64,000 nucleotides of DNA, from contig NC_135247.1 of the NCBI RefSeq assembly GCF_947623445.1, positions 19,036,501 to 19,100,500 on the forward strand, written 5' to 3'. The notes beneath the pieces are model-generated. The model ran no database searches. It saw only the letters and a program-made list of their open reading frames with translations, and had not been told where the DNA came from. How positions within the stretch are numbered: the stretch's first letter is position 1; each line of letters opens with the position of its first letter. The translations under genes and the position numbers were made by a program. Source of the DNA: Clavelina lepadiformis (taxonomy: Eukaryota; Chordata; Ascidiacea; Aplousobranchia; Clavelinidae). Shown one piece after another: positions 31,038 to 57,738 of the stretch.

Positions 31038-34000
31038 TTATCTTTTAAACAGGTTTTGAGCTTTCGCGAGCCGCGAAGCGCGGAAATCATTCCGTGACGC
31101 GCCGTAGAAGAAAGGCGATGGAGCATCGAGAGCGCCAGAGTTAAGTTTCTCGACCTCATCGACAACGGAACGAACCTGAAATTTACGTTTCGGTCATTTT
31201 AAAAGTTGATACAATTGCGTGGCAATAAAATAAAGCTGTCGACAAAGCCTTCGCTGCAAACAGAAACAAATTAGAATCGTTCTTTCTTGATTTAACATAA
31301 ATTGATTTTAATTATTGGTGCGATGACTTCTCTTTACTTAGTTATTTAAACTTAAGTGAACTTACAAAGATGTAGAACAGCGCGAGCCCGTTGCTGATTT
31401 CTTTCACGTGATCGAGGTCAAATCTCTCGACAATTTCTTTTGCTTCTTGAGCCATCGCCATTTCGACCTTGCGAGGATCAACTGACGTGACCTGCGCCTT
31501 CAGACTCTCTTTGCCCGTCTTTCCCATCAACACCTTCACATTAATCCAATCCTGACAAAAAAACTTCTATTATTATGACATCTCCTGTATCGTGATGCTG
31601 GTTTTTTATTCGCTAGCATTAGGCTACACATCAGACGACACTGTGTGATGTAGCAATATACAACATCATGATTTTGCAATAAAATAATGTATAACATGAC
31701 ATCACCTCTAGAGCTGAGGGCGGATATCCAAGAATGATGTAGACGCACGTCATAACTTCTTGGACTCCGGCCGGGGGTTTTGAGTAACTTCTGATTTCAG
31801 CCACTTCTCTCTGATTCAAGCTCAAGACGTCATGGCGAACCTGAACAGCCACAAAGTCAAGCGTTTACTGTGTATAGGCCGCCTTCAATTTGACCAGCAC
31901 AAATGCATCGAAATCAAACATTCTTCAATTAGAAATACTATATTGGTTGCCACCAAGCGTATTATCAAGCTATACGAAGTTCTTCTGCTGTAATACAGAT
32001 TTTTCGGTCAAGTACCTCGTTTGATGAATCTAACCGGTAAAGATATATACCAAAGGCAAAAACATATGTCCTGTATTACACCAGACGAGCACAGAATTTC
32101 TTGTTTCTTCTATTCGATTTAAACACATAGGATCAATATTAGGGTTTTCATGCAATTATCACTACACGTTTTCTGCGAAACTTTGATTCGGATTGATCGA
32201 ATTTTTTGTTGATTTAAATTAAGCGATTTGCTGAATTAGGTTAAATTAACTGGGTTCTAATTCCACAGCGATCTTATATGAAACATTCAGACGATTGGTT
32301 TAGCGTTGTGGTCCTGCAAGACAATGCTTCCAAAGAGAGCTGACAACTGAAAAGAGTTCAAAGCAATCATTGTGCAAATTAGATTAAAATTGGTAATGCC
32401 GAAACTTTTTACCCTACACATCACGTCTAAATACATAGCCTTCATTCGGTATATCATCTCACTGAATTAAGAACTTCCGTATGATGGTGCTACGACAGGG
32501 GCGGACAACTTCTTCGGTCGGCGGGCCTGATATGAGAAAATGAAGTACTTGGCGGGCCGGATTCATGAATAGATTGGAACGCAGCTTTGTCTTATTAATG
32601 TTCATGGTCGAAAATGTTTGCTCAAAAATGTATGTAGACCCGAACAGAACAAGTAGATTCATGGTCATCTTTCTCAGATTGGCAAACTTGGACTTATTCA
32701 GTGACGCAATACAGGGATTGCGGCAGAATTTGGCCACAGGCCACATTATCATGTTAGACCGGAAACTGTCTGCGGGCCGGATCCGGGCCGCGGGCCGTAT
32801 GTTGCCCGCCCCTGTGCTATGGGTTTGTTTCTGCATGCAGCGTGCAAGCACTTCAAGAAAAACATGAAAGATGAAACGAGAAAGGAAGAGGAAGATGTCG
32901 CGGTTGAGATAAAAAGTTAGAAGTAAGATTGACAGGACCGCGCCATGGTACCAGGGACCAAATGAAAGTGAATGAAGGATTTTAAGAAATTATTTTTTCG
33001 AAGTTAATCTCCTAAATTTGAACGAATTATGTTGTCGATGTCGTGACGTTCTAAAATCTAAATTAAAGCGCTGGATCTGGTAATTTCCAAACGCTAAATC
33101 TCCATTTCTTAGAATTGAGAGATTCCAATTGCGATGATATGTTCACATCAGCTGAATGCCTCAGGAAAGATTCGCATACCGTCATACTTGTCACGCCAGC
33201 CGTTAAAAACCGGGTCTACCAAGTACCTGGTAGTACAATTACGTTAGCACTGACTTAGCCTGGTTACCACAGCGGAAGAAAAACACGTGGAGTGGCATGT
33301 TTTGGAAAGTTACTGCCACCGCATTGTCCTTATAAGGATGTCTTCAACCTAAACCTCAAGTTTTCAAGCAAATCAGCAAACCTTTTCCAGGTATTCTAGC
33401 TCCTTTTTCATCTTCCTAGCCTGTCTGACTTCCACCGGTATATCCTTCTCGTATCCTTTTTCTTCCACAACGTTCAGTGTTGTCGTCACCAGTTCCAGGT
33501 CGCGAGTTTTCATCGATCTTTCCAATTCTATGATTTAACCCATACGTAAATCTTGTTGTGCAAAACACATGACTCAAATAATGATGTCATAATTGACGTC
33601 ACAGATAACTTACTCTCGCGGCAGTCGTGGATTTCGAGCATTCTGTCGACGGTGGACTGGTCGTAGCCGTTCATAGCGCGAAGCTCGAAAGTAATGGACT
33701 CGACTGACTCGACATTGCCCGACGACAGAGCATGACTCAGTTTACTCATCATTTTCTGCAGGGGTCAATTGAGTGCATGAGCAAAAGAACGCCACTGAAA
33801 CAAATCGATTCCAACCTATGTCATAGTGACGTCACCTGTGAACTTTTAAGCTCTTTGAGCATTGCTTCCGCCAATCTAAGTTCATTTTTCAGCTCGTTCT
33901 CATAATTTTGTTGTTTTATGTTGAAGATCGCCCTCTCGAGATATTTCACGTTGCGCAGCTCCATTGCGTAGCTCAAGCCTAGAAAGTGGTCATGAAAGTT

Positions 34001-37000
34001 GAAAAGTATCCTGAATATTTACTAGAAATCCCGACACTGGACAGACCCTGTTTGCATTGGTTCAACCCAATCAAACGTTCCGCGCGAATGAGGTCACCAT
34101 CGACGTCATCAAGACCTAACGTCCGGAATTCCTTAACAGCAGTTATAGCGGCGTGCACGTCTGAATTCTCTACCGCTAGACGAAGCTGGAGACGCACGGT
34201 TGCTTCCACGTCATCGCTAGAGGAGATTCTGTGACAACATAAAATGATCACCGTGACGTCATTATTACTTAAACACGTCGGAATAGAGTTCACAATAGTA
34301 CTGAGCTAAAACAATATGAAAAATCGCAAACGTGGTGTAACCCGCCCATAACCCTACATACCAGGCACACCTCATAGCATACACGAATTGCATTACCCTC
34401 CGTTACTGCGAAATCTTTACACTTATAGCCAGGGTTGCCATACCGTCCTTATTTATAAGATTTGTCGTTATTTTAAAGGTCCGTGTCTTAGAAAATATGT
34501 TTGTCCTTCTTTCTAAGAAATGTCCTTATTTTCACTTTCGTCCTTATTTTTAGGGCGGAGGTGGGCACTTTTGTCCTTATTTTGGGCATTTTGTCACCTT
34601 TACGATACCATTTTGTACCAAAGAGATACCAAAATTATGAACATACAGATAGTGTCTTGTTTTTTTCTTCTTTTTAGGAACATTGGTTGCTTTCTCTTGT
34701 TGTACACTGTTTAAGGTGGTATTCGTTTTTCATTTTCTAGTCGTCCTTATTTTTGAGTTGAGACTGATGGCAACCCTGTTTATGGACAACACGTTTTGTT
34801 GAGTTCTTACCAAAAGCCGTTGTAAGCGATACTTATAATTACAATTTTGTTTTTGACAAAATTTCATACTGTACATCGCTAATTCCAAAAGCATTGTTTG
34901 CATAATGGCAAGGTCAGTTATCTCAATCCGTCAAAACGTTAGCTGTTAAAGTGTTCTGCTAACTCTACTCTAATGGGGAAACAACTTTAAAATTTTCCAA
35001 TTCCAGATGTCGGTTTATGAAAGATTTAGACAAGCGCGTGGATAGAAGTGAGACAACCAGGCCGCTTTACTCCATCTTAGTTGAAAACTTACGAATGTTT
35101 CAATTCAACTTGTTCCGGTGATAACTCAGCAGGATCGTCGCTTGCCATTTATAAGCAGCATGTAATAACAGTCTGGTATTAGCTTTGTACTGTATTTAGT
35201 TGGTTAGTGCAAAAGTTCTAAGAATACCAAAATTGTGTTATTCGTCTTAAGAAGAATTACGTAAATCAACCTGTTACACAAATCAACTTGCAGTATTTGT
35301 AGCACGATCAAAAAACAGCTAAAAACTTGCCAACCACGTCACAAAACATAAATAGCGAGCTTATAGACAGACTTACGTGGGAATTGACCGGTAAATGGCT
35401 TCTTCTGATGGAATTAGCACAGGTGCCACCGTGGCTTCTCTGCCATAAAGTTTAACATGTATTTTAAAGCAAATAAATGAGATTAATAAATGAGATCAAT
35501 CAATACTCACCGTGTGTTGGCTCCGGTTTTCACTGATCTTTCCTCAATATTTTTCACACTCTCCATGCTGTTGACAAAAAAATTACAATTTTTTGTACTT
35601 CATTGTTTTGCAGGGTTTGTGAAAAGGCAACTTTGATATCAAAGAGCGTTTCTTCCTAAATAAACTTGTCAAAGGACGCGGAAAACTGCAGCGGTTAGTT
35701 TCATGTAATAATAACAGTATTTCCTAAAAGGACATGCAGAGGCTAACTTATCTTATGTTAACATAAATTGGGTTAACTTATCTTATGTTAACCTAACTTA
35801 TGTTAACTTAATTTACCTGATGAATTATCTGACTCTATTGTTGCGTGCGGTTAGAATACTCTAGCCTCTTGTCAGCCGAAAGGTTTTAATATTACAACAG
35901 AAATAGTCTACAAGAAAGGGTTTTTATTGTTGGTGCTGTACTTTTTCTCAACATGACGCATAATCAAAAACAGAGTAATACCACTGCTTATAAGATGTCT
36001 ATTGAGTTGCAAACACCATGACTAGCATAGAAAGCTCATTTGCCTCTCTCTGCTCGCTGGTAGAATTGCGAGCTCATAAAACGTGAAGCGATGGGAGTAA
36101 AAATATTCGACAAGATAAACGCAGCATTTCACAACATGTGCAGCGAGGAAAACAGTGTTTTGGCAAGGGAAGTTACATGTAGTTGAAGCAGACACGTAGA
36201 TAAATTATCAGTATAAAATTAAAAAGCTGACATGATGATGTCATAATAAAAAAATGCTGCTTGACAAAAAGTCGTTCGCTTGAAGGTCGCCAGTATCAGT
36301 GCCGGCATTTTACTGCGCATGTTGCTTTGAACAAGCGGTTACATGCAGGGATAATGAGCTATAGGTGGTGATTAGTTGTGAAGCTGGAACATGTTGATTG
36401 AGTCGCTTTAGTTGTTAGTAACAAATCTATTTAGGACGCAACAGGAGCATATTTATATTAAGTTAGGCTATTTGCCATGTGCGGTCCGCTTACTGGCTGG
36501 GTTCTGATGGCATAAAATTGATGGACTGTGATAGAAGTGGTTGAAACAACGCTAAATTACCTTTGTAGTCAGACTGCAGTTCTGTTCCTAGTGTTAGGCT
36601 ACCTCGGTACATGTCATTACCGATTTATCGTTTTATGATCAGACTGATTAGGTCCTAATCATTAGGCTACTATAAGCTACTAGAAGTACCGAGTACAGTG
36701 AGCCACCGGGAGACGCGTTTATTTGTCAGTAGCAGAAGTATTTCATTGCTGGAATAAGTTTAAAATGATCCGAGTCATCAACTCAATCGAATAGCTTAAC
36801 TTATCATTGCTGTAACATGACCTGTTGTTCTTATTCCAATAATTAAGATTTTTTGATGTGATGGAATTAATTTGGGCGCTTGATACCGGTAGGTGGTGCT
36901 AGCACCAATTCCTGAACTTCAAGCTGACGACTTGTTGTCAAGAACGGGCTATATAGGCTACAGAACTTGTAATCAGCTTCGGGGCTGACCGTTAGATATT

Positions 37001-40000
37001 TTCTTTAGCGCCAACTTACGGCTGGTTTGCATAAAGAACTTCTTCTGGTGATTCGGCTGGCATGCTGATGGCACTGCAAGTGTAAATGTATCAGTGTAAA
37101 TAATTTGGTCGCTTGTCGTGATCTCATTTCGGTCAAAACATGAACCCGCTGATGTAACTGATTAGGATTAATCTTTCAACAATAATCTCTTTCCTGCATA
37201 TGAATTTTTTGTAAGGTTTTGTCTACTTTCTGATTTTGTCATAGAGTTACAAAAACTTATCGTTAAAAATTGCGATAGAACGTACGTGGCGGGTGGTTCT
37301 TCAGCGCTTATAACCGTAGCTCTGGATTCCCTGCCAAAATAACACGAGGCAAATTTTAAATGAAAACACTGACTAGCTTAGTGGTGAATATGAAAAGTTT
37401 GTAAGCAGGGAAACCAATGAAAGCCTCACCTGAGCGGTATATCAGAACTGAACTGGGTTTGCTGTGACGTAAAAGAGTATTTGTTAGATCTATTGACCTT
37501 AACCACCAAGTTCTCTAAATAATTAACTACCTGATGTTATTAAATACCTTTTCAACCCCATCCCTAATGGGTGCTCGTTTCGTCCAATAATAACCAATCG
37601 CGATGATAACCCCGCAAATAAAGATGAGGCAAGCGAGTACCACTCCGGCGATCTCTCCTTCAGACAAAGCCGTAATCGCTTGTGACGTCACAGTCGGTGC
37701 AGTAGCTTTAATGAAAGATAGATTTTGTTTTATCCAGAACAAGAAGCAAAAATAGTACTCGCTCAAAAATGCTTACTCGTTGCAACTGGCTCCCCGACGT
37801 CAAACTGAAACGAGGTAACCGTTGTTGAAGTGCTTTCTATCGTCCCATAAAGAACTGTCTCATTATTGCCCGACAATTGTTCGGAAGTTGGAACAAAGTA
37901 GTAAATGTTCACAATGTTCGGACTCGAAACAATTTGCCTAAAAGTAAAACATTGTGATGTGACAACAAGTTCTTGGAAAGTGAGTTCACAACATAGATAT
38001 CTTACTGGAAGTCGTAGATGGCACTGCTGGGCTTTTGGATTGTTGTGGAATAGTAACATGAAGCAGTGCCTTGAGTTGTTGAAAGTGATAAATTAGTCCC
38101 CGAAGCGTCAACCGTGAAGGAAAATGTCTGGGATTCCCCGGGATTGAGATTAAAACTCACTGAAGTGTTCACATCCAATAACACTGGTTCTATGAAGTAA
38201 AAAGCGTAATTAAGGATGTCACAATAATGCGAGCGACCCATGAAAAAAGATGATAAAATACAGAATCACCAACCATCGCAAATCGCGTTTTCTATATTTG
38301 ACGTCAGATCTGACAATAACGACGCACTACTGACGTTGAACACGTGACTTGAAGCTGATCCTGTCGCGATTTGGGCAAGCTCGCTCTAAACCAAAAAATT
38401 TTCTTTTAAAGTTGACTAACACTTGAATTATAAGCTGTTATTGAAGCATTCTAATTGCAAAGATACAGCCTACCTGAGCAACCGCGCTTGATGCGCCAAC
38501 CGCGATAATTCCAACATTATCCTTGATCGCTTGCTCGACAGCGGCTGTTACGTCATCTGTACTTCCCGTTGACGCCACCACGATCAAAACCTACGTCGTC
38601 ATAGATTCATTAACCTGTTCATGCGCAGACGTACTCAGAAGAAAGAGCTCAACGTGTTCTTTCTCCTTACCCTGGCCACTGCATTATCCACACCTCGTCC
38701 TCCGTATGCGCTTCCAAATAAAGCAACTCCCTGAGTTATCGCGAATCCTGTTTGGACGCCTGTAGTCGATGATTGCGTCATTGCAGTTATGGAATTAGTG
38801 ACGTCATCTAATGACGTGCCATCGTTCAATTCCAAGTCCACCTAAAAACGAGCAAATAAGGAACAACTAACACAGTTTTCATGTTTGAACGAGCTGTGAA
38901 CTGGTTTTATGATAAAAGTTTGATCAAAACCAACTATGACGGTTCATTACTTGTATAGCCAGTGTTTTATGACTTCAAGTAACTGGTTGTAATCAATCAA
39001 TCGCCAACTTTAAAACTACATTGCTCTAAATTTAAAGCACATTTGCCAACAGAACAGACTTCCTGAACGTTGGTGAAAGTGACGAGTCCAATGCGGGTCT
39101 TTGCTGAGCTGATGTCAAATTGAGCGACCACGACCCTCAAGAAGGATTTGATCGTTTCAAAGTCGCTGCTTGCAATCGGTGCTGAGTTGTCGACGAGAAA
39201 CATGACGTCACGATATACAGAGGTGCAGAGAGTGGCTGGAAAAGTGGTGTGACGTGTGTATGACGTATGGGGGAATAACGTAAGTGGCTGAGAGTTACAG
39301 ATTTTGATTAAAGTTAGCCTTACAGCTTATAATAGAGTTGACCAAGCTGATGAAAGTTGACTCGTCTATCGGGGCGACCTCTTCGCGGAAATAAAAATCC
39401 CAGATCAAATACTGAGAAGAATGACATTAAGTTAAACTAACAAGGATCAAGACGTTTTATTCTAACCCGTTACGAGCCAGAAAAACTATCGACTTACAAG
39501 GAATAGGGATCCGCGCATGCGCAGTGTGTAGCAAAGTAATTGACGACTCGAACCTGTTCAGGCAAAGTAGCGGGCAGAGCTGCAGTGCTGTTCAGTTCGA
39601 CGTGGGCAAGAACAAGACGAGCTGCCAACGCCGAGTAGAGCGGAATATCGAGGTCGTTGTAGGCGACCGATGTCCACGTGATGTTGAACTGACTGAGAAT
39701 CATCGGGTAATAGGTGCTAGCGTTGTAGGTTTCATCCATCAAATTGCTGAAGGCAATTGCTGAAATCTTTTGTGAGACACAAGAGTAGTTACAATGGACA
39801 TTTTTGCGTCATCGATCCACTTCTTAAAACTTATTTTCGAATTTTCCACATAATGCTCAATTGAATGATCGGTCGTTTATGCCTGATATTAAACAACTCA
39901 CAAACTAAGATAGTTTTTCTACAACCTTCCATATTCCGCCCTCTCCGGTCGCCGTTATGGCGACTCCATCGCTGGTTTCAACATAAGCAAGTCGTCTCAG

Positions 40001-40347
40001 GAAATCGTCGTCATCCGGGAAAATCTCTACAAAAAATCGGTACCGCAATTTTAGTCAAGAGACTTTGTCCTGGTGTTTGCCTTTTTTCAGACTTACTTTG
40101 AAATATCATACGACAAACGACGTCAAGGCGACAAATGTGCACAAGCCTACTTTTTGCGTTACGTAAAATTTTTTATTAAATTTCATAGTGATTTCTTTAA
40201 TTTACCTGATGACGTAATAAGATCGACGCATCTAAGAGTGACCACCGTCCCAGAGCTGCCAGAGACAAGCGCCAAGTCAGTCTGTTGCTGAGACGGTCGT
40301 GTCAGGCCACAAATAATAACGAGGACACACAGGGCGTGAGTCAGCAT
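31038..40347 (-). CDS. Array gene A: transmembrane VWA protein with cytoplasmic hairpin repeats and dynein MTBD-like domain
   Basis: Twenty-four exons join with unbroken phase, about 1014 residues. Signal peptide MLTHALCVLVIICGL; lysozyme/transglycosylase-like domain about 49-185 (RRLAYVETSDG with a candidate catalytic Glu, GEGGIWK, IPLYSALAARLVL, YLIWDFYF); VWA domain about 186-350 (DVMFLVDNSAP, RIGLVTF, ARVLIVVASTGSTDDV, GIIAVGAS) in which the MIDAS DxSxS is DNSAP and the usual second Asp is lost; a PPC/FN3-like beta module about 390-500; one transmembrane helix about 527-549 (GVVLACLIFICGVIIAIGYYW). Six small exons (37430-37461, 37286-37330, 37020-37073, 35511-35567, 35377-35439, 35093-35140) link to four helical hairpins (about 658-862). 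Exons 31706-31840 and 31366-31551 encode a domain like the dynein stalk MTBD (EVAEIRSYSKPPAGVQEVM, DWINVKVLMGK, ISNGLALFYIF). A basic tail ends at 31038. Function unknown; a surface protein tethered to microtubules is inferred. Confidence 0.8.
32496..32814 (-). mobile_element. Short hAT element in an intron of array gene A
   Basis: The ends are CAGGGGCGGACAAC and, reverse-complemented, CAGGGGCGGGCAAC. Flanking 8-mers TGCTACGA and TGCTATGG agree at 6 of 8 bases. The minus strand keeps the end of a hAT transposase with the dimerisation motif (LLVLFGSTYIFEQTFSTMN, then NKTKLRSNLFMNP). A second copy of the same family lies at 42177-42499. Non-autonomous; inserted between the last hairpin exon and the dynein-like exons. 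Confidence 0.8.
34430..34778. mobile_element. hAT-like MITE in an intron of array gene A
   Basis: Perfect 12-bp terminal inverted repeats CAGGGTTGCCAT bound a 349-bp segment. The interior repeats the word GTCCTTATTTT several times on the plus strand. Flanking 8-mers agree at 5 of 8 bases, so the target duplication has decayed. No protein remnant is visible. Confidence 0.65.
35745..35818. repeat. Short tandem repeat, TTAACTTATCTTATG units
   Basis: About 70 bp made of imperfect copies of a TTAACTTATCTTATG / TTAACATAA unit, within an intron of array gene A. It looks like a minisatellite without other content. Confidence 0.6.
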
Positions 40348-43232: not shown

Positions 43233-46200
43233 TCATCTTTTAGAAGGCTTTTTAACCTTGGCCTGCTTCGAAGGCCGTTTGCTTTTCCGTGACGCGCCGT
43301 AGAAGAAAGGCGATGGAGCATCGAGAGCGCCAGAGTTAAGTTTCTCTACCTCATCGACAACGGAACGAACCTAAAATTTACGTTTCGGTCATTTTCAAAG
43401 TTGATACAATTGTGTGGCAACAATATAACGCTGTCAATAAAGCCTTCGCTGCGAGCAGAAACAAATTAGAATCGTTTTTTTATTTAAATGCAAACAGAAT
43501 TCATTCAAACAAAGGTTCACTTCTTCACTTACAAAGATGTAGAACAGAGCGAGTCCGTTGCTGATTCCTTTCACGTGATTGAGGTCAAATCTCTCGACAA
43601 TTTCTTTTGCTTTTCGCGCCATTGCCGTGTCGACCTTGCGAGGATCAACTGACGTGACCTGGGCCTTCAGACCCTCTTTGCCCGTCTTTCCCATCAGCAC
43701 CTTCACATTAATCCAATCCTGACAAAACAAACGTCTTTGTCATGAGCTCTCGTGTATCGTGATGTTCTTGGTTTGGTTCCAGGTCGATTCAACACATCCG
43801 TACGATGGCGTGATGGTGAATTGACCGGCCACCATCACCTATGTTCTATCGAGCGCAGACTTAATTGAGCCAGTTTATGCAGAAACTTATAAGCGTGCCA
43901 GCAAAGACTTGGATAGAGAGGGCGATTCTCTTCAGGCTTTTCTTTATGTAACTCGCCAACACACGACCTTGTGCTTTCAGTGAGCGTCGAACCGACAACT
44001 TTTGAAAGTCGGCCTAACACCCCACCGCTAGGATAAATGGCCGACGTCTTGTGACGTTATAATGTAGAATATTTTGTTTTTGTCATGTAACAATGTACAA
44101 CATGACATCACCTCGAGAGCTTTGGCTGGATATCCGAGAATGAGATAAGCGCAGGATATGACCTCGTGGACCCCGGCCGGTGGTTTAGTGTAACTTCTGA
44201 TCTCGGCGATATCTTTGTTCTTCAACTCGAGCACTTGACGGCGAACCTGAACAGCCACAAAGTGAAGCGTTTTCTCTGTATAGGCCGCCTTGAATTTGAC
44301 CAGTACAAATGCATCGAAATCAAACATTCTTCAATTAGAAATACTATATTGGTTGCCACCAAGCGTATTATCAAGCAATACAAAGTTCTTCTGCTGTAAA
44401 ACAGATTTTTCTGTAACAGTTTCGGGAAAGTACCGACCTGATCAAGCTGAACGGTTGGTGTAATGTTTTTTATGGAGTTAAAATATTTGAAGGACATTTG
44501 AGGGTTTACAACAGGCGATTTAGAAAATTATTTGAAATAATTTTGTTTCAATTCAATTTCAAACCTGTTCCAGGTATTCTAGCTCCGACGCCATTTTCTT
44601 AGCCTGGCTCACTTCCACCGGTAAGTCCTTCTCGAATCCTTTCTCTTCCACAACCTTCAGTGTTGTCGTCGCCAATTCCAGGTCGCGATTCTTCATCGAT
44701 CTTTCCAATCCTATGATTTAATCCATACGTAAGTGTTGTTGTGTAAAAACATGACGTATGCAGTGATGTCATCATTGACGTCACAGAAAACTTACTCTCG
44801 CGGCAATTGTAGACTTCGAGCATTCTATCGATGGTGGCCTGGTCGCAGCCGTTCATGGCACGTAGTTTCAAAGTGATGGATTTGATTTGTTCACGGTTGC
44901 CAGCCGCTATAGCTTCGATCAGTTCCCTCATCAAGTCCTGCCAAGTTGAAACAAATTTTTGCTCTTTAACAAACAACTCAGGAAGTGAAAAGGAGAGTTC
45001 CTTCTCCAGAATGGTGGAAAAATGCGAGGCTTGCCGGCCATAAGTTCAACGTCACTTGAACATAATCTTTTTCTCATTCGCACTTTGAATGGTGAGCGAA
45101 GAACGCCACCGAAACAATGAAACAAATCGATTCCAACCTATGTCATAGTGACGTCACCTGGGAGTTTTTGAGCTCTTTGAGCATCGCTTCCACCAATCTA
45201 AGTTCATCTTTCAACTCGTTTTCATAATTTTGTTGCTTTATGTTGAAGATCGCCCTCTCGAGGTATTTCACGTTGCGCTGCTCCACTGCGTACTTTAAGC
45301 CTAGAAAGTGGTCATGAAAGTTGAAAAGTATCCTGAATATTTACAAGAAATCTCGACACTGGACAGACCCTGTTTGCATTCGTTCAACCCAATCAAACGT
45401 TCCGCGCGAATGAGGTCACCATCTTCGTCATCAAGACCTAACTTCCGGAGTTCCTCAAGTAGGGTCGTAACGGCGTCAATGTCTCCATTTTCAACCGCTA
45501 GACGGAGCTGGAGACGGACGTTTTCTTCTTCTTTTTCGGTTTTTAACTTTTTAAAACAAAACACAGATTATTGTTCATGCTGAACGCATTCAATTAACTG
45601 CGTAGTAGCATCGAAATCTTCAACTTTTAATTCTTCACTTGCAAATCGATTGGTGGTTGCCATAGCGATGACAATTACACCAGTATTGGTCTGACCATGT
45701 CACGATATCGAAGGAGTCGTGACGTGGTGTATTTTCGAAAATGCTGCAGTACGGGAATGCCCCCGAAGAAGGCAGAGTGAAACAGGGAATTACACCGGGA
45801 ACCCAAGTTTGGATTGGACACCCAGTTGGTCATTAACGTTGGAGCAAGGACGTTACACTTTGTAGTTATAAGTTTCGATGCAAAGTACAACATATGCAAG
45901 GTAAGCCACAGGTTTTAAAACGAATCAACAAACCTTTTCCAGGTATTCTAACTCCGACGTCATTTTCTTAGCCTGGCTCACTTCCACCGGTAAATCCTTC
46001 TCGAATCCTTTCTCTTCCACGACCTTCAATGTTGTCGTCGCCGGTTCCAGATCGCGATTCTTCATCGATCTTTCCAATTCTATGATTTAACCCATACGTA
46101 AGTGTTGTTGTACAAAAAACATGACGTATGCAGTGATGTCATGATTGACGTCACATAAAACTTACTCTCGCGGTAGTCGTGGACTTCGAGCATTCTGTCG

Positions 46201-49200
46201 ATGGTCGCCTGATCCCAGCCGTTCATGGCGCGTAGTTTCAAAGTGATGGATTTGATTTGTTCACGGTTGCCAGCCGACATGGCTTCGATCAGTTGCCTCA
46301 TCAAGTCCTGCCAAGTTGAAACAAATTTTTGCTCTTTAACAAACAACTCAGGAAGTGAAAAGGAGAGTCCCTTCTCCAGAATGGTGGAAAAACGCGAGGC
46401 TTGCCGCCTTGCCGGCCATAGGTTCAACGTCACTTGAGCATAATATTTTTCTCATTAGCACTTTGAATGGTGAGCGAAGAACGCCACTGAAACAAATCGA
46501 TTCCAACCTATGTCATAGTGACGTCACCTGGGAGCTTTTGAGCTCTTTGAGCATTTCTTCCGCCAATCTAAGTTCATCTTTCAACTCGTTTTCATAATTT
46601 TGTTGTTTTATGTTGAAGATCGCCCTCTCGAGGTATTTCACGTTGCGCAGCTCCATTGCGTAGCTCAAGCCTAGAAAGTGGTCATGAAAGTTGAAAGCTA
46701 TCCTGAACATTTACAAGAAATCTCGACACTGGACAGACCCTGTTTGCATTCGTTCAACCCAATCAAACGTTCCGCGCGATTGAGGTCACCATAGACGTCA
46801 TCAAGACCTAACTTCCGGAGTTCCTCAAGTAGGGTCGTAACGGCGTCAATGTCTCCATTTTCAACCGCTAGACGGAGCTGGAGACGGACGTTTTCTTCTT
46901 CTTTTTCGGTTTTTAACTTTTTAAAACAAAACACAGATAATTATTGTTCATGCTGAACGCATTCAATTAACTGCGTAGTAGCATCGAAATGTTCAACTTT
47001 TAATTATTCATTTGCAAATCGATTGGTGGTTGCCATAGCGATGACAATTACACCAGTATTGGTCTGACCACGTCACGACATCGAAGGAGTCGTGACGTTG
47101 TGTATTTTCGAAAATGCTGCAGTACGGGAATGCCCCCGAAGAAGGCAGAGTGAAACAGGGAATTACACCGGGAACCCAAGTTTGGATTGGACACCCAGTT
47201 GGTCATTAACGTAGGAGGAAGGACGTTACACTTTGTAGTTATAAGTTTCGATGCAAAGTACAACATATGCAAGGTAAGCCACAGGTTTTAAAAACGAGTC
47301 AACAAACCTTTTCCAGGTGTTTAAACTCCGACGTCATTTTCTTAGCCTGGCTCACTTCCACCGGTAAATCCTTCTCGAATCCTTTCTCTTCCACGACCTT
47401 CAGAGTTGTCGTCGCCAATTCCAGGTCGCGATTCTTCATCGATCGTTCCAATTCTATGATTTAACCCATACGTAAGTGTTGTTGTACAAAAAACATGACG
47501 TATGCAGTGATGTCATGATTGACGTCACATAAAACTTACTCTCGCGGTAATCGTGGACTTCGAGCATTCTGTCGATGGTCGCCTGGTCCCAGCCGTTCAT
47601 GGCGCGTAGTTTCAAAGTGATGGATTTGATTTGTTCACGGTTGCCAGCCGCTATAGCTTCGATCAGTTCCCTTATCAAGTCCTGCCAAGTTGAAACAAAT
47701 TTTTGCTCTTTAACAAACAACTCAGGAAGTGAAAAGGAGAGTTTCTTCTCCAGAATGGTGGAAAAATGCGAGGCTTGCCGGCCATAGGTTCAACGTCACT
47801 TGAGCATAATCTTTTTCTCATTAGAACTTTGAATGGTGAGCGTAGAACGCCACTGAAACAAATTGATACCAACCTATGTCATAGTGACGTCACCTGGGAG
47901 TTTTTGAGCTCTTTGAGCATTGCTTCCGCCAATCTAAGTTCATCTTTCAACTCGTTTTCATAATTTTGTTGTTTTACGTTGAAGATCGCCCTCTCGAGGT
48001 ATTTCACGTTGCGCAGCTCCATTGCGTAGATCAAGCCTAGAAAGTGGTCATGAAAGTTGAAAAGTATCCTGAATATTTACTAGAAATCTCGACACTGGAC
48101 AGACCCTGTTTGCATTCGTTCAACCCAATCAAACGTTCCGCGCGATTGAGGTCACCATAGACGTCATCAAGACCTAACTTCCGCAGTTCCTCAAGTAGGG
48201 TCGTAACGGCGTCAATGTCTCCATTTTCAACCGCTAGACGGAGCTGGAGACGGACGTTCTCTTCTTCTTTTTCGCTGGAGGATATTCTGTGACGACAACA
48301 AAGGATCAGTGTGACGTCATTAGATAAAACGGTGTCTTTGAATTCCAGATAGATTTTTAATTAAGATTTATACGATAGACACGACGAGAGATCCTGCAGG
48401 TTGCTCCATCTTAGTTGAAAACTTACGAATGTTTCAACTCAATTTTTTTGATTTTTAGTAGGTTTGTGAAAAAAATTGAGCATATTTTTATTGCGGTATT
48501 GGTTCTTATTGAGCCTATTTTTGATGACATATATCAACCAGTTTCTGTAAACTTCTTGTACTACTCCTTTTTTTATGACAATTTTGTACCACTCTTTCTC
48601 ACTGGTGAAGAAATAATTTAAAAATAATATGAAATATCATCAACTCACGTCGTAGTACTTTTCGATGCGACATCGGGTTCGGTTTCGTATTCACTGCAAG
48701 TCGCATTATTTTATAGAACAAATATTAACGTAAGTCGATTGTAGATTGAATTAATAGCACACCAAAATAATTTAGAGAAACAGTAAAGATTTCCAGAGCA
48801 CGTCACAAAGCCCAATACTGTACATGCTGACTTACGTGGACAATAAAGGATATATGGCCTCTTCTGACGGAATAAACACCGGCTCCGGGATGATTTCTCT
48901 GCCATAAATTTTAAGTAAAAACTTCGAAGCGAATTCGTGAGATTAAAAACTTATCTTTAAATATTGCGATTGAATGTACGTGTCGGGTGAATTACGCAAG
49001 TAAATTTTAAATGAAAACACTGACTAGCTTAGTGGTGAATATGAAAAGTTTGTAAGCAGGGAAACAAATGAAAGACTCACCTGAGCGGTATATCAGAACT
49101 GAACTGGGTTTGCTGTGACGTAAAAGAGTATTTGTTAGATCTATTGACCTTAACCACCAAGTCTTCTAAATAATGAGCTACCTGATGTTATTAAATACCT

Positions 49201-52200
49201 TTTTAACCCTATCCAAGATGACTCCTCGCTCCGTCCAATAATAACCGATCGCGATGACAAGCCCGCAAATAAAGATGAGGCAAGCGAACACCACTCCGGC
49301 GATATTCGCCCCAGATAAGCTCGTTATTGGTTGTGACGTCACATTCCACGCGTAGGCTTCCAGAAAATATAGATTTTGTTGTATTCAGAACACAAAAATC
49401 GGAATCTCAGCTCGATCAAAATGCTCACATATTGCAACTGGTTCCCCGACGTCGAACTCAAACGAGGTGCCGACCCTTGAAGTGCTTTCTATCGTGCCGT
49501 AAAGAATGCACTCATTATTCTCGGACAATTGTTCGGAAGTTGGAACAAAGTGGTAATTGTTGTCGTTGTTGGGGCGCGAGATATTCAGCCTAAAATCGAA
49601 ATAAAACTATTGTGATGTCACAATAATGCCCTCGTAAGTGAGTGTATAACATGGACAATTTGTATATCTGACTTGAAGTCGTAGATGGCACTGCTGGGCT
49701 TTTTAACTGCTGTGGAATAGTAAGTTGAGGCGGTGCCTTGAGTTGTTGAAAGTGATAAATTGGTTCCTGAAGCGTCAACCTTGAACGCAAATGTCTGGGA
49801 TTCCCCGGGATTGAGATTAAAATTCACGGATGAGCCTGCATCCAATAACACTGGTTCTATGACGAAACAAACGTGACCATGTTAACGTCAAATTACTGTT
49901 GAAAAGCAAGAAGAGTTTTCAAGAATTTAGAACAACACAAAACTTTTATGACAAAGATGCTGGATCACCAACCATCGCAAATTGCGTCTGGCACGTTAGA
50001 CGTAAACTCAGTCAATAACGACGCAACGTCAGTCACTTGAAACATGTGTCTTGAGACAGACCCGGCCGCGATATGGGCAAGCTCGCTCTAAAGCAATCAA
50101 CTAGACTTCAACTTTGGCACATACTGTTGAATTATAAGATGTTATTGAGGCATTCTACGTGGGGAGATGCAACCTACCTGTGGGACCGCTCTTGATGCGC
50201 CAATCGCGATAATTCCAACATTATTTTTTATTGCTTGCTTCACAGCTGGTCTTACGTCATCCATACTTTCCGTTGACGACAACACGACCAAGACCTATGT
50301 CGTCATAGAGTAATTAGTAGGAGCTGACACATGCTCAGAGAAAAACGCATCGGGCATTTTCTCCTTACCCTGGCCACTCCACTCTCTACACCCCGTCCTC
50401 CGTACGCGCTTCCAAATAAAGCAACTCCCTGAGTTATCGCGAATCCTGTTTGGACGCCCGTAATCGATGATTGCGTCATTGCAGCTATGGAATTAGTGAC
50501 GTCATCTAGTGATGTACCATTGTTCAATTTCAAGTCCACCTGAAAACGAGCAAATAAGAAACAACTTACACAGTTTTCATTACAAATTGCTTGAACAAGC
50601 TGTGAACTGGTTCTATGATAAAATTTTGATCAAAAACAACTATGATGGTTCATTACTTTTATGACCAGTGTTTTATGACTTCAAGTAACTGGTTGTAATC
50701 AATCGCCAACTTTAAAGCTACATTGCTCTAAATTCAAAGCACATTTGCCGACAGAACAAACTTCCTGAACGTTGGTGAAGGTGACGAGTCCAATGCGGGT
50801 CTTTGATGAGCTGATGTCAAATTGAGCGACCACGACCCTCAAGAAGGATTTGATCGTTTCAAAGTCGCTGCTTGCAATCGGTGCTGAGTTGTCGACGAGA
50901 AACATGACGTCACGATAAACTGAGGCGCAGAGAGTGGCTGGAAAAGTGGTGTGACGTGTGTATGACGTATGGGGGATCATGGAGGTAGTAGACAAATAAA
51001 CTTCTAATTCAAGTTAGCCTTACAGCTTATAATAGAGTTGACCAAGCTGATGAAAGTTGACTCGTCTATCGGGGCAACCTCTTCGCGGAAATAAAAATCC
51101 CAGATCAAATACTGCGAAGAATGACAAGTAAGTTAAACGAACAAGGATCACGACGCTTTCTTCTAACCCGGTATCAGCCAGAAAAGTTATCGATTTACAA
51201 GGAATAGGGATCCCCGCATGCGCAGTCTATAGCAAAGTAATTGACGACTCGAACCTGTTCAGGCAAAGTAGCGGGCAGAGCTGCAGTGCTGTTCAGTTCG
51301 ACGTGGGCAAGAACAAGACGAGCTGCCAACGCCGAGTAGAGCGGAATATCGAGGTGGTTGTAGGCCACCGATGTCCACGTGATGTTGAACTGACTGAGAA
51401 TCATCGGGTAATAAGTGCTGGCGTCGTAGGACTTGTCCATCAAATTGCCCAAAGTTATCGCCGAAATCTGTTTGGTAATTGTTATTACAATATACCCATA
51501 CATGAGATAGATTTCCACCTTCTTGTTACTGTGTTAATTGTATAATCGACATGCTGCCACTGGCAACCGCACGGTCATGAACTAGGTGTTTTATTTTGTC
51601 AGCACCTAGCTTGATTTTTCGGGCCAATATACGCATAGCAACCAGCCATGACTATCCACAGGCGCGTTGAAATAACTGAAACTGAGACAAGCGCACAATC
51701 TCTATTTACGCAAATTTGTTCGCCAATTATTTTCTCATCCTTTTTAGTAGTGATTTTAATATTCTTGCATTATGTTCTCCTATTCTTATACGTCTTTACG
51801 TTCTGTACACATTAATAGCTTTGTATGGTTTAAATATTTTAGGTTAAGCATACGTCAGGGCTAACCGTGACCTGAGCCTCAAAATTGCAGACTGGCAGCA
51901 TGACCCGACCTCTATTGCTAAATTCCATGTGCTTAGAAAAAATGTAAGAAGTTTTTACCCAACCTTCCATATTCCGCCCTCTCCAGTCGCCGTTATCGCG
52001 GTTCCATCGCTGGTTTCGACATAAGCAAGTCGTCTCAGGAATGCGCCGTCGTACGGGAATATCCCTGCAAGAAGTCAGTACCACAGAAGACTTCAATTTC
52101 GAGTGTGTCGTGTTGCCATGGCGACATTTACGCACGAAGCGACAAGCTATAGTGCAGGGTGACCTTTGACTTTACAATTGCGCTTAAATTTGATAATGGA

Positions 52201-52352
52201 AACTCTGAATTACCTGATGACGTAATGAGATCGACGCATCTGAGAGTGACCACCGTTCCAGTGCTGCCAGAGACAAGCGCCAGGTCAGTTTGCTTAGAGA
52301 GCCGTGCCAGGCCACAAATAATGACGAGGACACACAGGGCGTGAGTCAGCAT
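43233..52352 (-). CDS. Array gene B: transmembrane VWA protein with amplified hairpin repeats and dynein MTBD-like domain
   Basis: Paralogue of gene A with the same exon order. Signal peptide from the ATG at 52350-52352; transglycosylase-like exon (LRRLAYVETSDGTA, GEGGIWK); VWA domain without a normal MIDAS; beta module; transmembrane helix (GVVFACLIFICGLVIAIGYYW, exon about 49199-49353). The linker is shorter than in A: exons about 49081-49112, 48838-48895 (IIPEPVFIPSEEAIY) and 48649-48691; remnants near 48950 and 48430 look like lost exons. The hairpin block of four helical hairpins is present three times (12 hairpins) because of a 1.37-kb tandem amplification. The dynein MTBD-like exons are 44112-44246 (DIAEIRSYTKPPAGVHEVI) and 43533-43718 (DWINVKVLMGK); the last exon ends in a strongly basic tail (SKRPSKQAKVKKPSKR). 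Total length about 1,350-1,400 residues by estimate; exon-intron phases were checked in the tail but not for every ectodomain exon. Confidence 0.77.
44570..48290 (-). repeat. Three tandem units of about 1.37 kb inside array gene B
   Basis: The same order of four hairpin exons plus introns recurs at about 48290-47305, 46930-45935 and 45560-44570, with a period close to 1.37 kb. Intron sequence is as similar as exon sequence: the block 45680-45900 reappears almost unchanged at 47050-47270. Each unit adds about 190 residues in frame because it enters and leaves in phase 0 (LEK|LKTEKEEENV). The high similarity indicates recent amplification or ongoing gene conversion. Confidence 0.88.
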
Positions 52353-54162
52353 AATTTGGTTTTGTCACTCGCTGCTCTAAGCTTATTGTTCACAAGTTCC
52401 ATGCACACATTTTCATCATCCATTCACACACTTCAAATCAGGAGATTTTGCTTGATAAATCCAAAAGAATTTCACGAAAAATAACTTTTAGGACACTCGC
52501 TGACTTGACATAAACAAATGCTATGATTTGGAAGAGAAAAACAATTTAATTGATGTAAAAATAGAATAATTACCGTCGTTGTAAAAACACACGGTCAATA
52601 CCAACACATCACATCAAAGCAACATTTATCTCTCTGAGGCGCTACAACTAATTGGTACTTCAAGGGCATATACAAAACGGTTTGTCGGCATAATATGTCG
52701 ACGACGATCTTGCGGTCCGGCTCACTTTTCGCGAACTTGTACGGTACATTGTGAATTTCTGTTCGAGGGTGAAATTTTACCTACTTTTAACAAAACACCA
52801 TTTTATGTGGGTAAAATTATCCATAGCAAGATGCGGGCGGGGTCAGATGCGGGATCCAGGCGTCAGGTATAAAAAGTTAAGGTTTTTTCTGTTCTGGGCC
52901 GACGGCAAAAATCATAATAGGGTAGCGCCAGTACCGGTTGCTTTTTCTCGACAGAAGATAGCCTAGGCTTTTGAACTTGGCTAGTACGGTGTCAAAAGCC
53001 CTTCATCAACACTCGAACCTAATTTTAACGCTCGTGAGGCGAGCGCCTTAACCAGCTGACCATGGGCTGATAACTCACAGATAACTTGGAACGCTTCAAG
53101 ACACAATTTATTACTATCAGTCCCAGTATCGCTAAACGCTTGGGAATGATAACAAACAGAACAATGCGAATTCCTGCAAGCATTTGCAACTGACTAAAAC
53201 TTAAAACTACTTCATAATTAGAACTAATTATCAACAATCAAAGTTCTTTGATACGTCATAAGAACAATGTTGCAATGAAATTTTCAAAATTGCACAAGGA
53301 CATACACGACAGAAAACATAGAAATCATAAATCAAAAGAAAATGCTCACCAGAAAAAAACATCAACTAGGCTACTGGCAAAAGTCACATAGTTGATTGTT
53401 AACGTCATAATCTGGCTGAAAAATAACGATCGATCGTCACGTGATTGCGCGCTAGAAAAATTTGAGGAAGGTCAAAGGTACAGCTGAAGGATTATATCCA
53501 ACGGATAAGCTCTTTACAATTTAAAAGCCAGTTAGCCATTAGCCAAAAATGTACAGTACAACTAGGTTATAAGTTTAGGAAAAGTTTTTGGTAAACCATC
53601 GACTCGCTGTCTCTTAATCATTTCATTGTTTAAATATTTTTTTCTTGATAAACTTTTGAGCCTAGCACGACATTGGTTGCTAATACAATGGGTTTTATCC
53701 GGACTCTGATGTATAAGTAACAGCTTTGCCTGCAATTAACAATGTAAATTGACAGTTAGCGACTATGGCAGTTAACGGCAAAAGAAAATAGTCTAAATAG
53801 CCCGTTCTAGTCAAACTTAAAAAGATATATTTTTATAAGTTATTACGACAATGCTTGGCTTATATATAGCGTGCAAGGGTCTTGCCGCAAGCCTACAACT
53901 GCAAAAGCTACAATTAATCACGCCCGAGCGTCAATTAAAACACTGAACGAACAATCGTTGTTGAAACCAGCCACCTGTCGTACTGTAAAGATTTTTTTTA
54001 AAAAGAGATTGTGGACTTGTTGTTGGCGCCGCCATTTCGCTGAATGAATACAGTTGGTTGTGAAGAAAGTGAATTAAATTATTCCTACGTTAGGATTTAG
54101 GTAGAGTAATAACCGCTTGAAAGAGGTTAAAACTCGGTTTGAAAACGCGGCATACTCTGTAT
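52353..54162. other. Spacer between array genes B and C
   Basis: It should contain the promoter of gene B and the 3' UTR of gene C. Apart from the tRNA-like segment at 52999-53068 nothing could be identified. Confidence 0.4.
52999..53068 (-). repeat. tRNA-derived SINE head or degenerate tRNA
   Basis: On the minus strand the segment starts GCCCATGGTCAGCTGGTTAA, resembling a tRNA acceptor strand plus box A, then has a 5-bp stem (CGCTC/GAGCG) with a 7-nt loop GCCTCAC at the anticodon position, and a box B-like GGTTCGAGTG. The T stem does not pair and loop position 33 is C rather than T, so a working tRNA is unlikely. A Pol III-type SINE head fits better. Confidence 0.5.
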
Positions 54163-57100
54163 TTATACATTTTGTAACCGAGGTAAGATCTGCAAAGCAA
54201 GCTCCAAGTTGAGTACGAGGTCACCGTCTGCCTCATCAAGACGTAACTTTCGAAATTCTTTGATTGCGATAACGGCGGCATCCGTGTCTGGATTGTCCTC
54301 CGCTAGACGGAGCTGAAGACGCATGGTTGCTTCTGCGTTGTCGCGGGAGGAGAAACTAAGATGAAAACAGTCTTGAATTTAAAAAGATTGGGTTATTGCT
54401 GAGGCTTCTCCGTGACCACCAACGCATGCAGAATCAGATGAAAGCACTTTGGTACTGGCTCTTTTAGAATTAATTACTAACCTGCATGTGGGCTTTTAAG
54501 CCACAAAGCTAAAAATACTTCTCGATTCTGTTAAAAATGAGCCAAAATTTAGCGTTAAACTTAAAATGAAACTCACGCAGATGGTATCTCAGTGGCCATA
54601 GCCCCAACTCTTGATTCGGTAATAAAAATTAATTAGGCAATTTAAAATGGAAACACTGCCTAGGTGGATTAAGTTACTAGATTACTAAAATAATGAGCTT
54701 GCTTTTAATTTCAAAGATGGACGACAGACTCACCTAAGCGAAACATCGGAGCCTTGTCCTTCTTTCTGCGGAGGAAAAAAGAAAGGTTTAGGCAGTTTAA
54801 ATCCAAATTATGCGCGAGCAACCTGCAACCCCAGCGACCTGATGCCAAGAGTCTCACCTTTTCAACACCGTCCCTGACCGCCGCCCGCTTCTTCCAGTAA
54901 ATGGTTAGCCCGATGGTAACCCCGCAGATGATGAACAGGCAAGCAAGCACCAACCCAACGATCTCTCCATCAGATAAACTCCCTGCTGATGATGACGGGG
55001 TGTCGGTTCCTGGATTTTCGCTGACTGGATTTTCGTCGACTGGATTCCCGATGTCAAACCGCAAGGAGGACACCGCCATTGACGTGCTTTGGACTGTCGC
55101 GAAAACAGCGACCTCATTATTACCTGACAATTGTTGGGAAGTTGGAACAAAGTTGTAAATATTCTTGGTATTTAGACGCGACACAACTTGCCTGAAACAA
55201 AATCATGATACCTCAATATGATCTCACAACTTCGAAGTGAGTTTACCACATAGATATCTTACTTGAAGTCGTAGATGGCGCTGCTGGGCTTTTTAACTGC
55301 TGTGGAATAGTAAGTTGAGGCAGTGCCTTGAGTTGTTGAAAGTGATAAATTAGTTCCTGAAGCGTCAACTTTAAAGGAAAATGTCTGGGATTCCCCGGGA
55401 TTGAGATTAAAACTCACAGATGAGTTTGCGTCCAATGACACTGGTTCTATGACGCAAAAACTTGATTAGTTACGCCACAGAAATACGTGAAAGCAAAAAT
55501 ACTTATTTCAGGATTTCAAGTAACACCAAAATTTTATGATAAAACGCTGAATCACCAACCATCGCATATCGCGTCTTGTACATCTGACATCAGCTGTGAC
55601 AATAACGTCGCACTACTGACGTTGAACACGTGACTGGAAGCCGATCCTGTCGCGATTTTTGCAAGCTCGCTCTAAAACAATCAACTTCACTTCAACTTTG
55701 GCACATACTGTTGAATTATAAGCTGTTATTGAAGCATTCTACTTGGGGAGATACAACCTACCTGTGGGACCGCTCTTGATGCGCCAATCGCGATAATTCC
55801 TACGTTATTGTTTATTGCGTCCTTCACAGCTGGTCTTACGTCATCCATACTTTCCGTTGACGTCAACACGACCAAGACCTATGTCGTCATAGAGTAATTA
55901 GCAAGTGCTGATGTATAAGCTCAGAGAAAAACGCATCGGGCATTTTCTCTTTACCCTGGCCACTCCACTCTCTATACCCCGTCCTCCGTACGCGCTTCCA
56001 AATAAAGCAACTCCCTGGGTTATCGCGAATCCTGATCGAGCTCCCGCATTCGATGATTGCGTCATTGCAGTTATGGAATTAGTGACGTCATCTAGTGACG
56101 TACCATTGTTCAATTCCAAGTCCACCTGAAAACGAGCAAATAAGGAACAACTTACACAGTTTTCATTTCATTTCAATTTTTCAACTTTAAAGCTACATTG
56201 CTCTAAATTTAAAGCACATTTGACAACAGAACAGACTTCCTGAACGTTGGTGAAGGTGACGAGTCCAATGCGGGTCCTTGATGAGCTGATGTCAAATTGA
56301 GCGACCACGACCCTCAAGAAGGATTTGATCATTTCAAAGTCGCTGGTTGCAATCGGTGCTGAGTTATCGACAAGAAACATGACGTCACGATAAACTGAGG
56401 CGCAGAGAGTGGCTGGAAAAGTGGTGTGACGTGTGTATGACGTAGGGGACGGAGGCAATGAAGAGTTAAACCACTATATGCAGTAATTAGTGTAAAGATA
56501 ACCTTACAGCTCGTAATAGAGTTGACCAAGCTGGCGAAAGTTGACCCTTCGATTGTGGAGGTGCTTTCGTGAAAATATTTGTTCCAGATCGAATACTGAG
56601 AAGATTGACAAGTAAGTTAAGGGGCTCCACACTTTATTGTGACCCAATGTCGGTGGAGGTTCATAGATATGGTAGGTACATGAAGATAATAATCAGTTTC
56701 ATATTCTTTAACATTTAATGCCAATGCAGAGTTCCAAAAGGTGGGATGTGTTTATCCGCGCATGCGCAGTCTATAGCAAAGTAATTGACGACTCGAACCT
56801 GTTCAGGCAAAGTAGCGGGCAGAGCTGCAGTGCTGTTCAGTTCGACGTGGGCAAGAACAAGACGAGCCGCCAACGCCGAGTAGAGCGGAATATCGAGGTC
56901 GTTGTAGGCCACCGATGTCCACGTGATGTTGAACTGACTGAGAATCATCGGGTAATAAGTGCTGGCGTTGTAGGTTCCGTCCATCAAATTGCCCAAAGTA
57001 TTTGAGGAAACCTATTACACGATTTATTACAATGCACACGTTGTATGTGGTCTCCTTCAGGCTAATAAACTAAGGCAGTGCATCCACGACCTTCCATATA

Positions 57101-57738
57101 CCGCCCTCTCCACCCGCTGTTATGTTTCTTCCATCTCTGGTTTCCACATACGCGATCCGTCTCAGTAGTTTGCTATCATCCGGGAAGATCTCTGCAAAAA
57201 AGTTGGAGCCGTCAGAATTATGCCAGTAGATTTTATTACGGAATGTGCTAGGTATGAAAATGCTGTCGGTGTAATAAAGAACCTTTATCCTCGAACTGAG
57301 GAAATTCTTTGAACGACTTAAAATAGAAAATGTTTCCTTATTGCTCGACTCCGTTCTACCGAGCTAAACTTTGTGCAAGTTCCCATAAACAAACACATTT
57401 CTTACTGTGCTATAATTATAACTGCTTTATGCCAAAGTTTGAAACCAGGACAACTGAACAGATCAGGCCTTGTTCAAGCCTTGCTCAACTTTTACCGTAC
57501 AACGGAATCGTTGTTGGGTAGCACAGGTCTGCAAATATTGTAATCTGACCTTTGGATTAAAACCTGACCTATGAACATAATTTGAATTTACAGTACCTGA
57601 TGACGTGATGAGATCCACACATCTAAGAGTGACTCCCATTCCAGAGCTGCCAGAGACAAGCGCCAAGTCAGTTTGTTGCTGAGAGGGTCGTGCCAGGCCA
57701 CAAATAATAACGAGGACACACAGGGCGTGAGTCAGCAT
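54163..57738 (-). CDS. Array gene C: transmembrane VWA protein with short cytoplasmic tail
   Basis: Third member of the array. Signal peptide from the ATG at 57736-57738; transglycosylase-like exons (RRIAYVETRDG, GEGGIWK, IPLYSALAARLVL, YSIWNKYFHES); VWA domain (DVMFLVDNSAP) with the same MIDAS loss; beta module; transmembrane helix (LVLACLFIICGVTIGLTIYW). The exon for the end of the beta module and the membrane helix is continuous (about 54850-55195) where A and B have an intron, and adds a stalk rich in N, P and E. The tail exons are short (KEGQGSDVSLR, then VGAMATEIPSA) and join in phase to one hairpin exon (NAEATMRLQLRLAEDNPDTD) that runs into a stop at 54163-54165. Neither the other hairpins nor the dynein-like domain is present downstream. 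The frame is open, so it looks like a working short form. Its ectodomain is highly similar to A and B. Confidence 0.77.

Follow-up and report, generated by a model that had tools for sequence, protein, structure and literature searches.

Predicted single-pass VWA proteins of Clavelina lepadiformis ending in a remote homologue of the dynein microtubule-binding domain

The window analyzed in this study, a stretch of DNA 64,000 nucleotides long, maps to chromosome 8 of the ascidian Clavelina lepadiformis, a chromosome whose length the genome note (PMC10884593) puts at 19.51 Mb. It contains three genes, A, B, and C, and our goal was to follow up an initial annotation of them. We conclude that genes A and B very probably encode single-pass VWA proteins whose C-terminus is homologous to the microtubule-binding domain (MTBD) of dynein. 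We propose that the two proteins form a passive link between the cell surface and microtubules, in which a run of helical hairpins would act as a spacer and the end domain would attach either to the lattice of microtubules or to ciliary doublets close to the membrane; the probability of this proposal is, in our estimate, roughly 45%. Coordinates below are positions in the window, and all features of the three genes lie on the minus strand.

The C-terminal domain and the genes that encode it

The MTBD-like domain, together with the C-terminus, is encoded by exons 21–23 of gene A (31038..31840) and exons 27–29 of gene B (43233..44246). A phmmer search of the PDB with the gene A domain alone gave 36 sequences at E≤10, with a best E of 0.0025. 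Most of these were named dynein, and the remainder were judged by place and length to be dynein chains. With a single exception, the aligned stretches ended within the first 63 of the 125 residues. A profile made from 16 family members gave 65 matches at E≤10, the best at E 8.9e-9, over profile positions 9–113 of 128. Among the matches listed (60 of the 65), every one read as either a dynein heavy chain or an MTBD construct, although some bore odd depositor names, e.g., "Radial spoke head protein 9 homolog" on a chain of 4583 residues. Alignment of the family profile with four dynein MTBDs by hhalign gave 98.6% over 108 columns with a score of 90.8, whereas the best of 100 column shuffles scored 23.3, the reversed profile scored 13.7, and the hairpin profile reached 0.1%. 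The PDB profile search and the shuffled, reversed, and hairpin controls ruled out a chance alignment to the MTBD. Profile comparison thus showed the predicted C-terminal domain to be a remote homologue of the dynein MTBD, the resemblance that the initial annotation had seen. No motor domain was found among the Pfam matches of the proteins P0001, P0002, and P0003 at E≤0.05.

To assemble the exon chains, peptide seeds were picked by hand and combined with a splice-site score. The coding span of gene A (31038..40347) has 23 exons and specifies 981 residues; its 22 introns are GT-AG throughout and phase-consistent, and the predicted protein is letter-for-letter identical to P0002 (NCBI LOC143468480 isoform X2). 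The coding span of gene B (43233..52352) has 29 exons and specifies 1350 residues; its 28 introns are GT-AG throughout, and the protein is letter-for-letter identical to P0001 (NCBI LOC143468472 isoform X1). Both NCBI records are predicted models annotated as uncharacterized. The donor of gene A exon 17 and those of gene B exons 15, 19, and 23 were shifted by 24 bases after comparison with the NCBI proteins, both versions being in frame; all exon boundaries except this exon-17-type donor were fixed before the comparison. The three-gene array, with its coordinates and strand, and the unbroken reading phase of gene A were as first annotated. The 24 exons and six mini-exons claimed for gene A became 23 exons (in isoform X2) and five short linker exons. 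A repeat of about 325 bp is present in two copies that are 93.5% identical, one in the intron between gene A exons 20 and 21 (32495-32814) and the other between genes A and B (42176-42499).

Genes A and B share one order of parts: leader, N-terminal domain, VWA, post-VWA module, membrane helix, linker, hairpins, and C-terminal domain. In gene A, exons 1–4 (39324..40347) encode the leader and N-terminal domain, exons 5–8 (38274..39235) the VWA domain (Pfam PF00092, E 3.1e-29), exons 9–10 (37777..38189) the module after it, and exon 11 (37548..37705) the membrane helix. The corresponding parts of gene B are exons 1–10 (49429..52352), in which PF00092 was matched above its cut-off (E 1e-29 in P0001), and exon 11 (49199..49356), where the membrane helix was assigned by hydropathy. 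The hydrophobic leader was judged by eye, and the hydropathy limit of 1.6 was passed in gene B alone. After the VWA domain there is a single hydrophobic helix with a mean hydropathy above 3 (3.14 over 19 residues in gene A). N-x-S/T sequons before and after this helix number 7 and 0 in gene A, 6 and 0 in gene B, and 7 and 3 in the Ciona protein; the helix thus divides the sequons cleanly in Clavelina, and less so in Ciona because of the three sequons after it. In gene A it agrees with a type I membrane protein.

The N-terminal domain had been labeled transglycosylase-like, and no match supported this label or a lysozyme-like reading: the gene A domain had no Pfam match at E≤1, the Ciona domain had one unrelated match (E 0.24), and the PDB returned a single match, at E 0.49, to an uncharacterized protein. 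For the post-VWA module, beta-rich is a label of the initial annotation only. The gene A module (37777-38189) has a weak likeness to the galactose-binding-like domain of hemicentin (GBD_Hemicentin, PF23560; E 0.016, below the cut-off); if it is GBD-like, the VWA-GBD order would match that of hemicentin.

Beyond the helix, the juxtamembrane linker of gene A (exons 12–16; 35377..37461) consists of five short exons of 32, 45, 54, 57, and 63 nucleotides. Because exons 13–16 are symmetric in phase, skipping any of them would leave the reading frame intact, and a further linker exon may be present in another gene A isoform. The hairpins, which were assigned from sequence pattern in all genes, number four in gene A (exons 17–20; 33382..34228) and twelve in gene B (44565..48286). 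Gene B repeats the layout of gene A in its domain order, as had been claimed, but with twelve hairpins rather than four, a four-exon block being present three times (48286-47308, 46916-45934, and 45546-44565). The three blocks share 94–95% DNA identity, with a ratio of nonsynonymous to synonymous substitution rates (dN/dS) between blocks of 0.34–0.39. A hairpin profile gave four PDB matches at E≤1, the best at E 0.084, and no known fold was recognised. Between genes A and B, dN/dS was 0.31 to 0.41 across the four regions tested and 0.33 for the MTBD-like part.

In a second tunicate, Ciona, the orthologue LOC104266065 has the same domain order as Clavelina genes A and B. Of all the domains, the MTBD-like part is conserved best between the two animals, in 76 of 126 residues (60%). 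The corresponding figure is 39–42% in the three parts of the ectodomain, 50% in the hairpins, 27% in the linker, 31% in the final residues, and 61% in the membrane segment, which is short.

Because the NCBI models are predictions and gene A has a 1.5-kb intron between its exons 20 and 21, the ectodomain and the hairpin/MTBD exons could belong to separate transcripts that were joined into chimeric models. The phase-consistent GT-AG chains of both genes agree with the NCBI models, however, the same fusion is present in Ciona, and a similar order of VWA, membrane helix, and MTBD is found in amphioxus. We consider chimeric gene models very unlikely. Of the earlier interpretation, the domain order, the single-gene models, and the homology of the C-terminal domain with the dynein MTBD are supported, as are its detachment from the motor and its position behind a transmembrane VWA ectodomain.

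Tubulin contacts and a possible link to microtubules

From this anatomy a mechanism can be outlined. The N-terminal domain, the VWA domain, and the further module would lie outside the cell and, to judge from the VWA domain, probably bind a matrix or cell-surface ligand. One helix would span the membrane, as hydropathy and the sequon split suggest. Inside the cell, a variable linker would be followed by the run of four (gene A) or twelve (gene B) hairpins as a spacer, and the end domain may bind to the lattice of microtubules or to ciliary doublets close to the membrane. With no ATPase and no long stalk, such a protein would not step, and the stalk-registry switch described for dynein (PMC6629372; PMC7042235) should not work in it. 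Its affinity would be either constant or controlled in some other way. The simplest reading is therefore a static or regulated tether, not a motor.

Direct binding of tubulin by the MTBD-like domain would be needed on this mechanism, and we compared the domain with published contacts. According to PMC7042235, the salt-bridge positions of the yeast MTBD are K3117, E3122, and R3124 in H1, R3152 and R3159 in H3, and R3201 in H6, and neutralising any one basic contact cut affinity more than twofold. The alignment contained four dyneins and 44 family members; from the 46 collected, P0031 was dropped because the stretch was missing, and P0044 was missed by the motif. The results were as follows. Position E3122 is E in all 44 family members, and R3124 is R or K in all 44. 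At position R3152, 23 of the 44 members and two of the four dyneins have R or K; gene B has I there and Ciona has G. The neighboring position 3160 is K in 44 of 44 members. Mouse R3342, the equivalent of yeast R3159 (PMC7042235), aligns to this invariant-K column, and the R3159 contact is possibly kept for that reason. Two of the six published contacts are thus conserved (E3122 and R3124) and a third possibly (R3159), which falls short of a conserved contact set.

Several results weigh against a microtubule link. The Pfam MT family (PF12777, cut-off 24 bits), a check that the initial annotation had put forward, gave 14.7–14.8 bits with gene A (E 0.015–0.016, under the cut-off), no match with the gene B piece, and no match with the whole proteins P0001, P0002, and P0003 at E≤0.05; among the 16 family members, 12 matched it at E≤0.1, the best at 1.7e-9. 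K3117, basic in 4/4 dyneins, is basic in none of the 44 members and is Q in gene A. The same holds for R3201, which is basic in 4/4 dyneins and 0/44 members: 38 members have D at this position and two have E, which gene A and Ciona carry, whereas gene B has G. The 3159 column is G in all 44 members, gene A included, and R3152 is I in gene A. On the outer side, the metal site of the VWA domain was compared by eye with the motif of an intact metal-ion-dependent adhesion site (MIDAS), DxSxS...T...D. Gene A has D-N-S-A-P, with S-T-G where D is expected, and Ciona has E-S-S-S-A, so the motif looks degenerate in both animals.

The consistent alteration of the contact surface means either that the footprint has shifted or that tubulin binding has been lost. 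In the second case, the main rival explanation, the MTBD fold would be kept and the domain would cap the hairpins, mediating protein interaction or dimerisation. The change of both K3117 and R3201 throughout the family fits this explanation, as does the separation of the family from dyneins in a tree of 21 members and four dyneins (support 98/96, with a program warning of long branches). It fits less well with the full retention of the H1 pair, with the basic residues next to the lost sites (R or K at position 3118, beside K3117, in 30 of 44 members and at position 3200, just before R3201, in 40 of 44), with the invariant K3160, or with the strong overall conservation of the MTBD-like part; long-range charge has also been argued to outweigh single salt bridges (PMC4987762). 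We regard this loss of binding as possible, though doubtful.

In another version the proteins would be components of the ciliary membrane that join it to axonemal doublets and not to cytoplasmic microtubules. The 3159 column is suggestive here, because its G is shared with the two dyneins that we read as axonemal and not with the two cytoplasmic ones. Both of the top PDB profile matches belong to the axonemal kind (8glv is an axoneme entry), and members occur in animals that have much ciliated epithelium. PDB matches three to five, however, are cytoplasmic dynein, and we find a strictly ciliary role improbable.

The proposed link from surface to microtubules is favored by the conserved E3122/R3124 pair, the invariant K3160, the shared order in Ciona, the profile homology, and the dN/dS of 0.33. 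On these grounds we judge direct tubulin binding by the domain to have a little under an even chance. What we rate as new is a known domain, the dynein MTBD, in a new setting. More tentatively, we suggest an undescribed, metazoan-wide family of motor-less dynein MTBDs, from which transmembrane VWA receptors would have arisen in chordates, gripping microtubules or doublets directly through a rod with a length set by hairpin number (four or twelve). Surface receptors usually contact microtubules via adaptors, and to our knowledge a dynein-type MTBD has not been described in any transmembrane protein. If true, a direct link from receptor to microtubule, or from membrane to doublet, would be a new way of anchoring the cytoskeleton. 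The family is also a natural set of motor-free MTBDs with two contact charges changed throughout, so that the residues needed for binding and those needed for motor coupling are directly testable in Ciona.

Gene C and other features of the window

Gene C (54163..57738) encodes a leader, N-terminal domain, VWA domain (Pfam E 2e-30), post-VWA module, membrane helix, and one hairpin, after which the coding sequence ends with a stop. It had no MTBD match at E≤1e-3, in agreement with the earlier view that it lacks this domain. Its linker exons 54761-54730 and 54609-54577 have weak support. A PF12777 search of the whole Clavelina genome (209,060,895 bases) gave 47 matches, none of them inside the window; these 47 are presumably dynein heavy chain exons.

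Farther along the minus strand, a NACHT open frame of 582 residues and a protein kinase open frame of 257 residues (Pfam E 9.6e-22 and 8e-31, respectively) occupy 25346-28211. The NACHT frame lies shortly upstream of the kinase frame (25346-26119) on the same strand, and the two may make up a single NACHT-kinase gene or represent separate genes of innate-immunity-like type. A second, weaker kinase-like open frame (20381-21487, minus strand; Pfam E 5.8e-7) is perhaps related to the first. A HAD-type hydrolase open frame (7304-8005, minus strand; Pfam E 1.7e-16) resembles phosphoserine phosphatase by eye. Exons at about 59000-61100 on the minus strand resemble, by eye, those of mitochondrial elongation factor Ts. 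On the plus strand, a gene for a POLE3/4-like subunit with a histone fold may begin at 63.9 kb.

Relatives and comparison with known systems

Searches for relatives at E≤0.001, 0.01, and 0.01 gave 5, 27, and 34 proteins, respectively, queries included; because they rely on shared five-letter words and are restricted in length, they do not establish absence from vertebrates, insects, or protists. The tail of hairpins and MTBD-like domain was found in Clavelina and Ciona (with VWA and membrane helix), amphioxus, molluscs, a brachiopod, the sponge Sycon, and the coral Porites. Amphioxus has three kinds of carrier: a CLCA-VWA form with a membrane helix, an EF-hand-like form, and a form without Pfam domains. 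Two hairpins lie at the equivalent place in the coral, amphioxus EF-hand, brachiopod, and molluscan relatives by alignment, and likewise in the sponge by eye.

In the free tree the membrane forms of tunicates and amphioxus stood apart, and they were joined in 0% of 200 bootstrap trees. Forcing them into one clade cost 1.05 log units and was not rejected by the approximately unbiased (AU) test (p 0.206), so that the VWA-membrane-MTBD fusion may have had one origin or separate origins in the two groups.

Some amphioxus records are irregular. The record of an EF-hand-like member from Branchiostoma lanceolatum (P0043, Hypp8934) is split by a reverse transcriptase domain (PF00078), likely an intronic retroelement absorbed into the gene model. 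The ends of P0027-P0030 diverge from those of P0025 and P0026 immediately behind FYVW, at the site of an intron in the tunicate genes (FYIF), and the missing stretch of P0031 ends at Q-NW, matching the tunicate intron site E-DW. These breaks at tunicate intron sites suggest that intron positions are conserved.

In the open-licence literature searched, we found, among the papers listed, no description of a motor-less MTBD protein or of a dynein-type MTBD in a transmembrane protein; two of these papers (PMC5549309; PMC6264045) matched through Pfam enrichment tables. The earlier statement that no family with this order is described makes the arrangement look more isolated than it is: amphioxus CLCA-VWA proteins share the succession of parts, and the tail occurs on other proteins in molluscs, a brachiopod, a sponge, and a coral.

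The CLCA-type proteins of amphioxus (P0025-P0031), several of which go by the name calcium-activated chloride channel regulator, resemble gene A in having a VWA domain, a helical region, and an MTBD-like end, and one strong membrane helix was found in all three that were checked. They differ from it in a charged stretch and in the CLCA N-terminal domain PF08434, present in six of the seven. PF08434 was absent from P0001, P0002, and P0003 at E≤0.05 and present in amphioxus P0025, and we do not count the tunicate proteins as CLCA members. The ectodomains of the CLCA-type proteins and gene A gave no clear BLAST alignment (best E 0.40).

The KY/transglutaminase-like proteins of molluscs and the brachiopod (P0004, P0006-P0024, and others) have the family tail of two hairpins and a C-terminal MTBD-like domain. 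Unlike gene A, they carry KY-type immunoglobulin and mostly transglutaminase domains ahead of it; of the two checked for a membrane helix, P0004 has none and P0023 has one weak peak (1.62). The sponge and coral proteins (P0005 from Sycon and P0046 from Porites) likewise end in two hairpins and an MTBD-like domain, preceded by a long charged stretch and EF-hands, which exceed the Pfam cut-off in Porites only.

Compared with dynein itself, the family is without a motor and has a short helical base where dynein has its coiled-coil stalk. The 18-residue flap of the dynein MTBD (PMC6629372) is missing from it, three residues are added at the GKTGK segment, and the loop before the W is longer by three to four residues. 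In common with the dynein MTBD, the family has, on H1, E-[IV]-[RK] with PP after it, an LLG-like segment, the W, and, on H6, a serine and a W or F.

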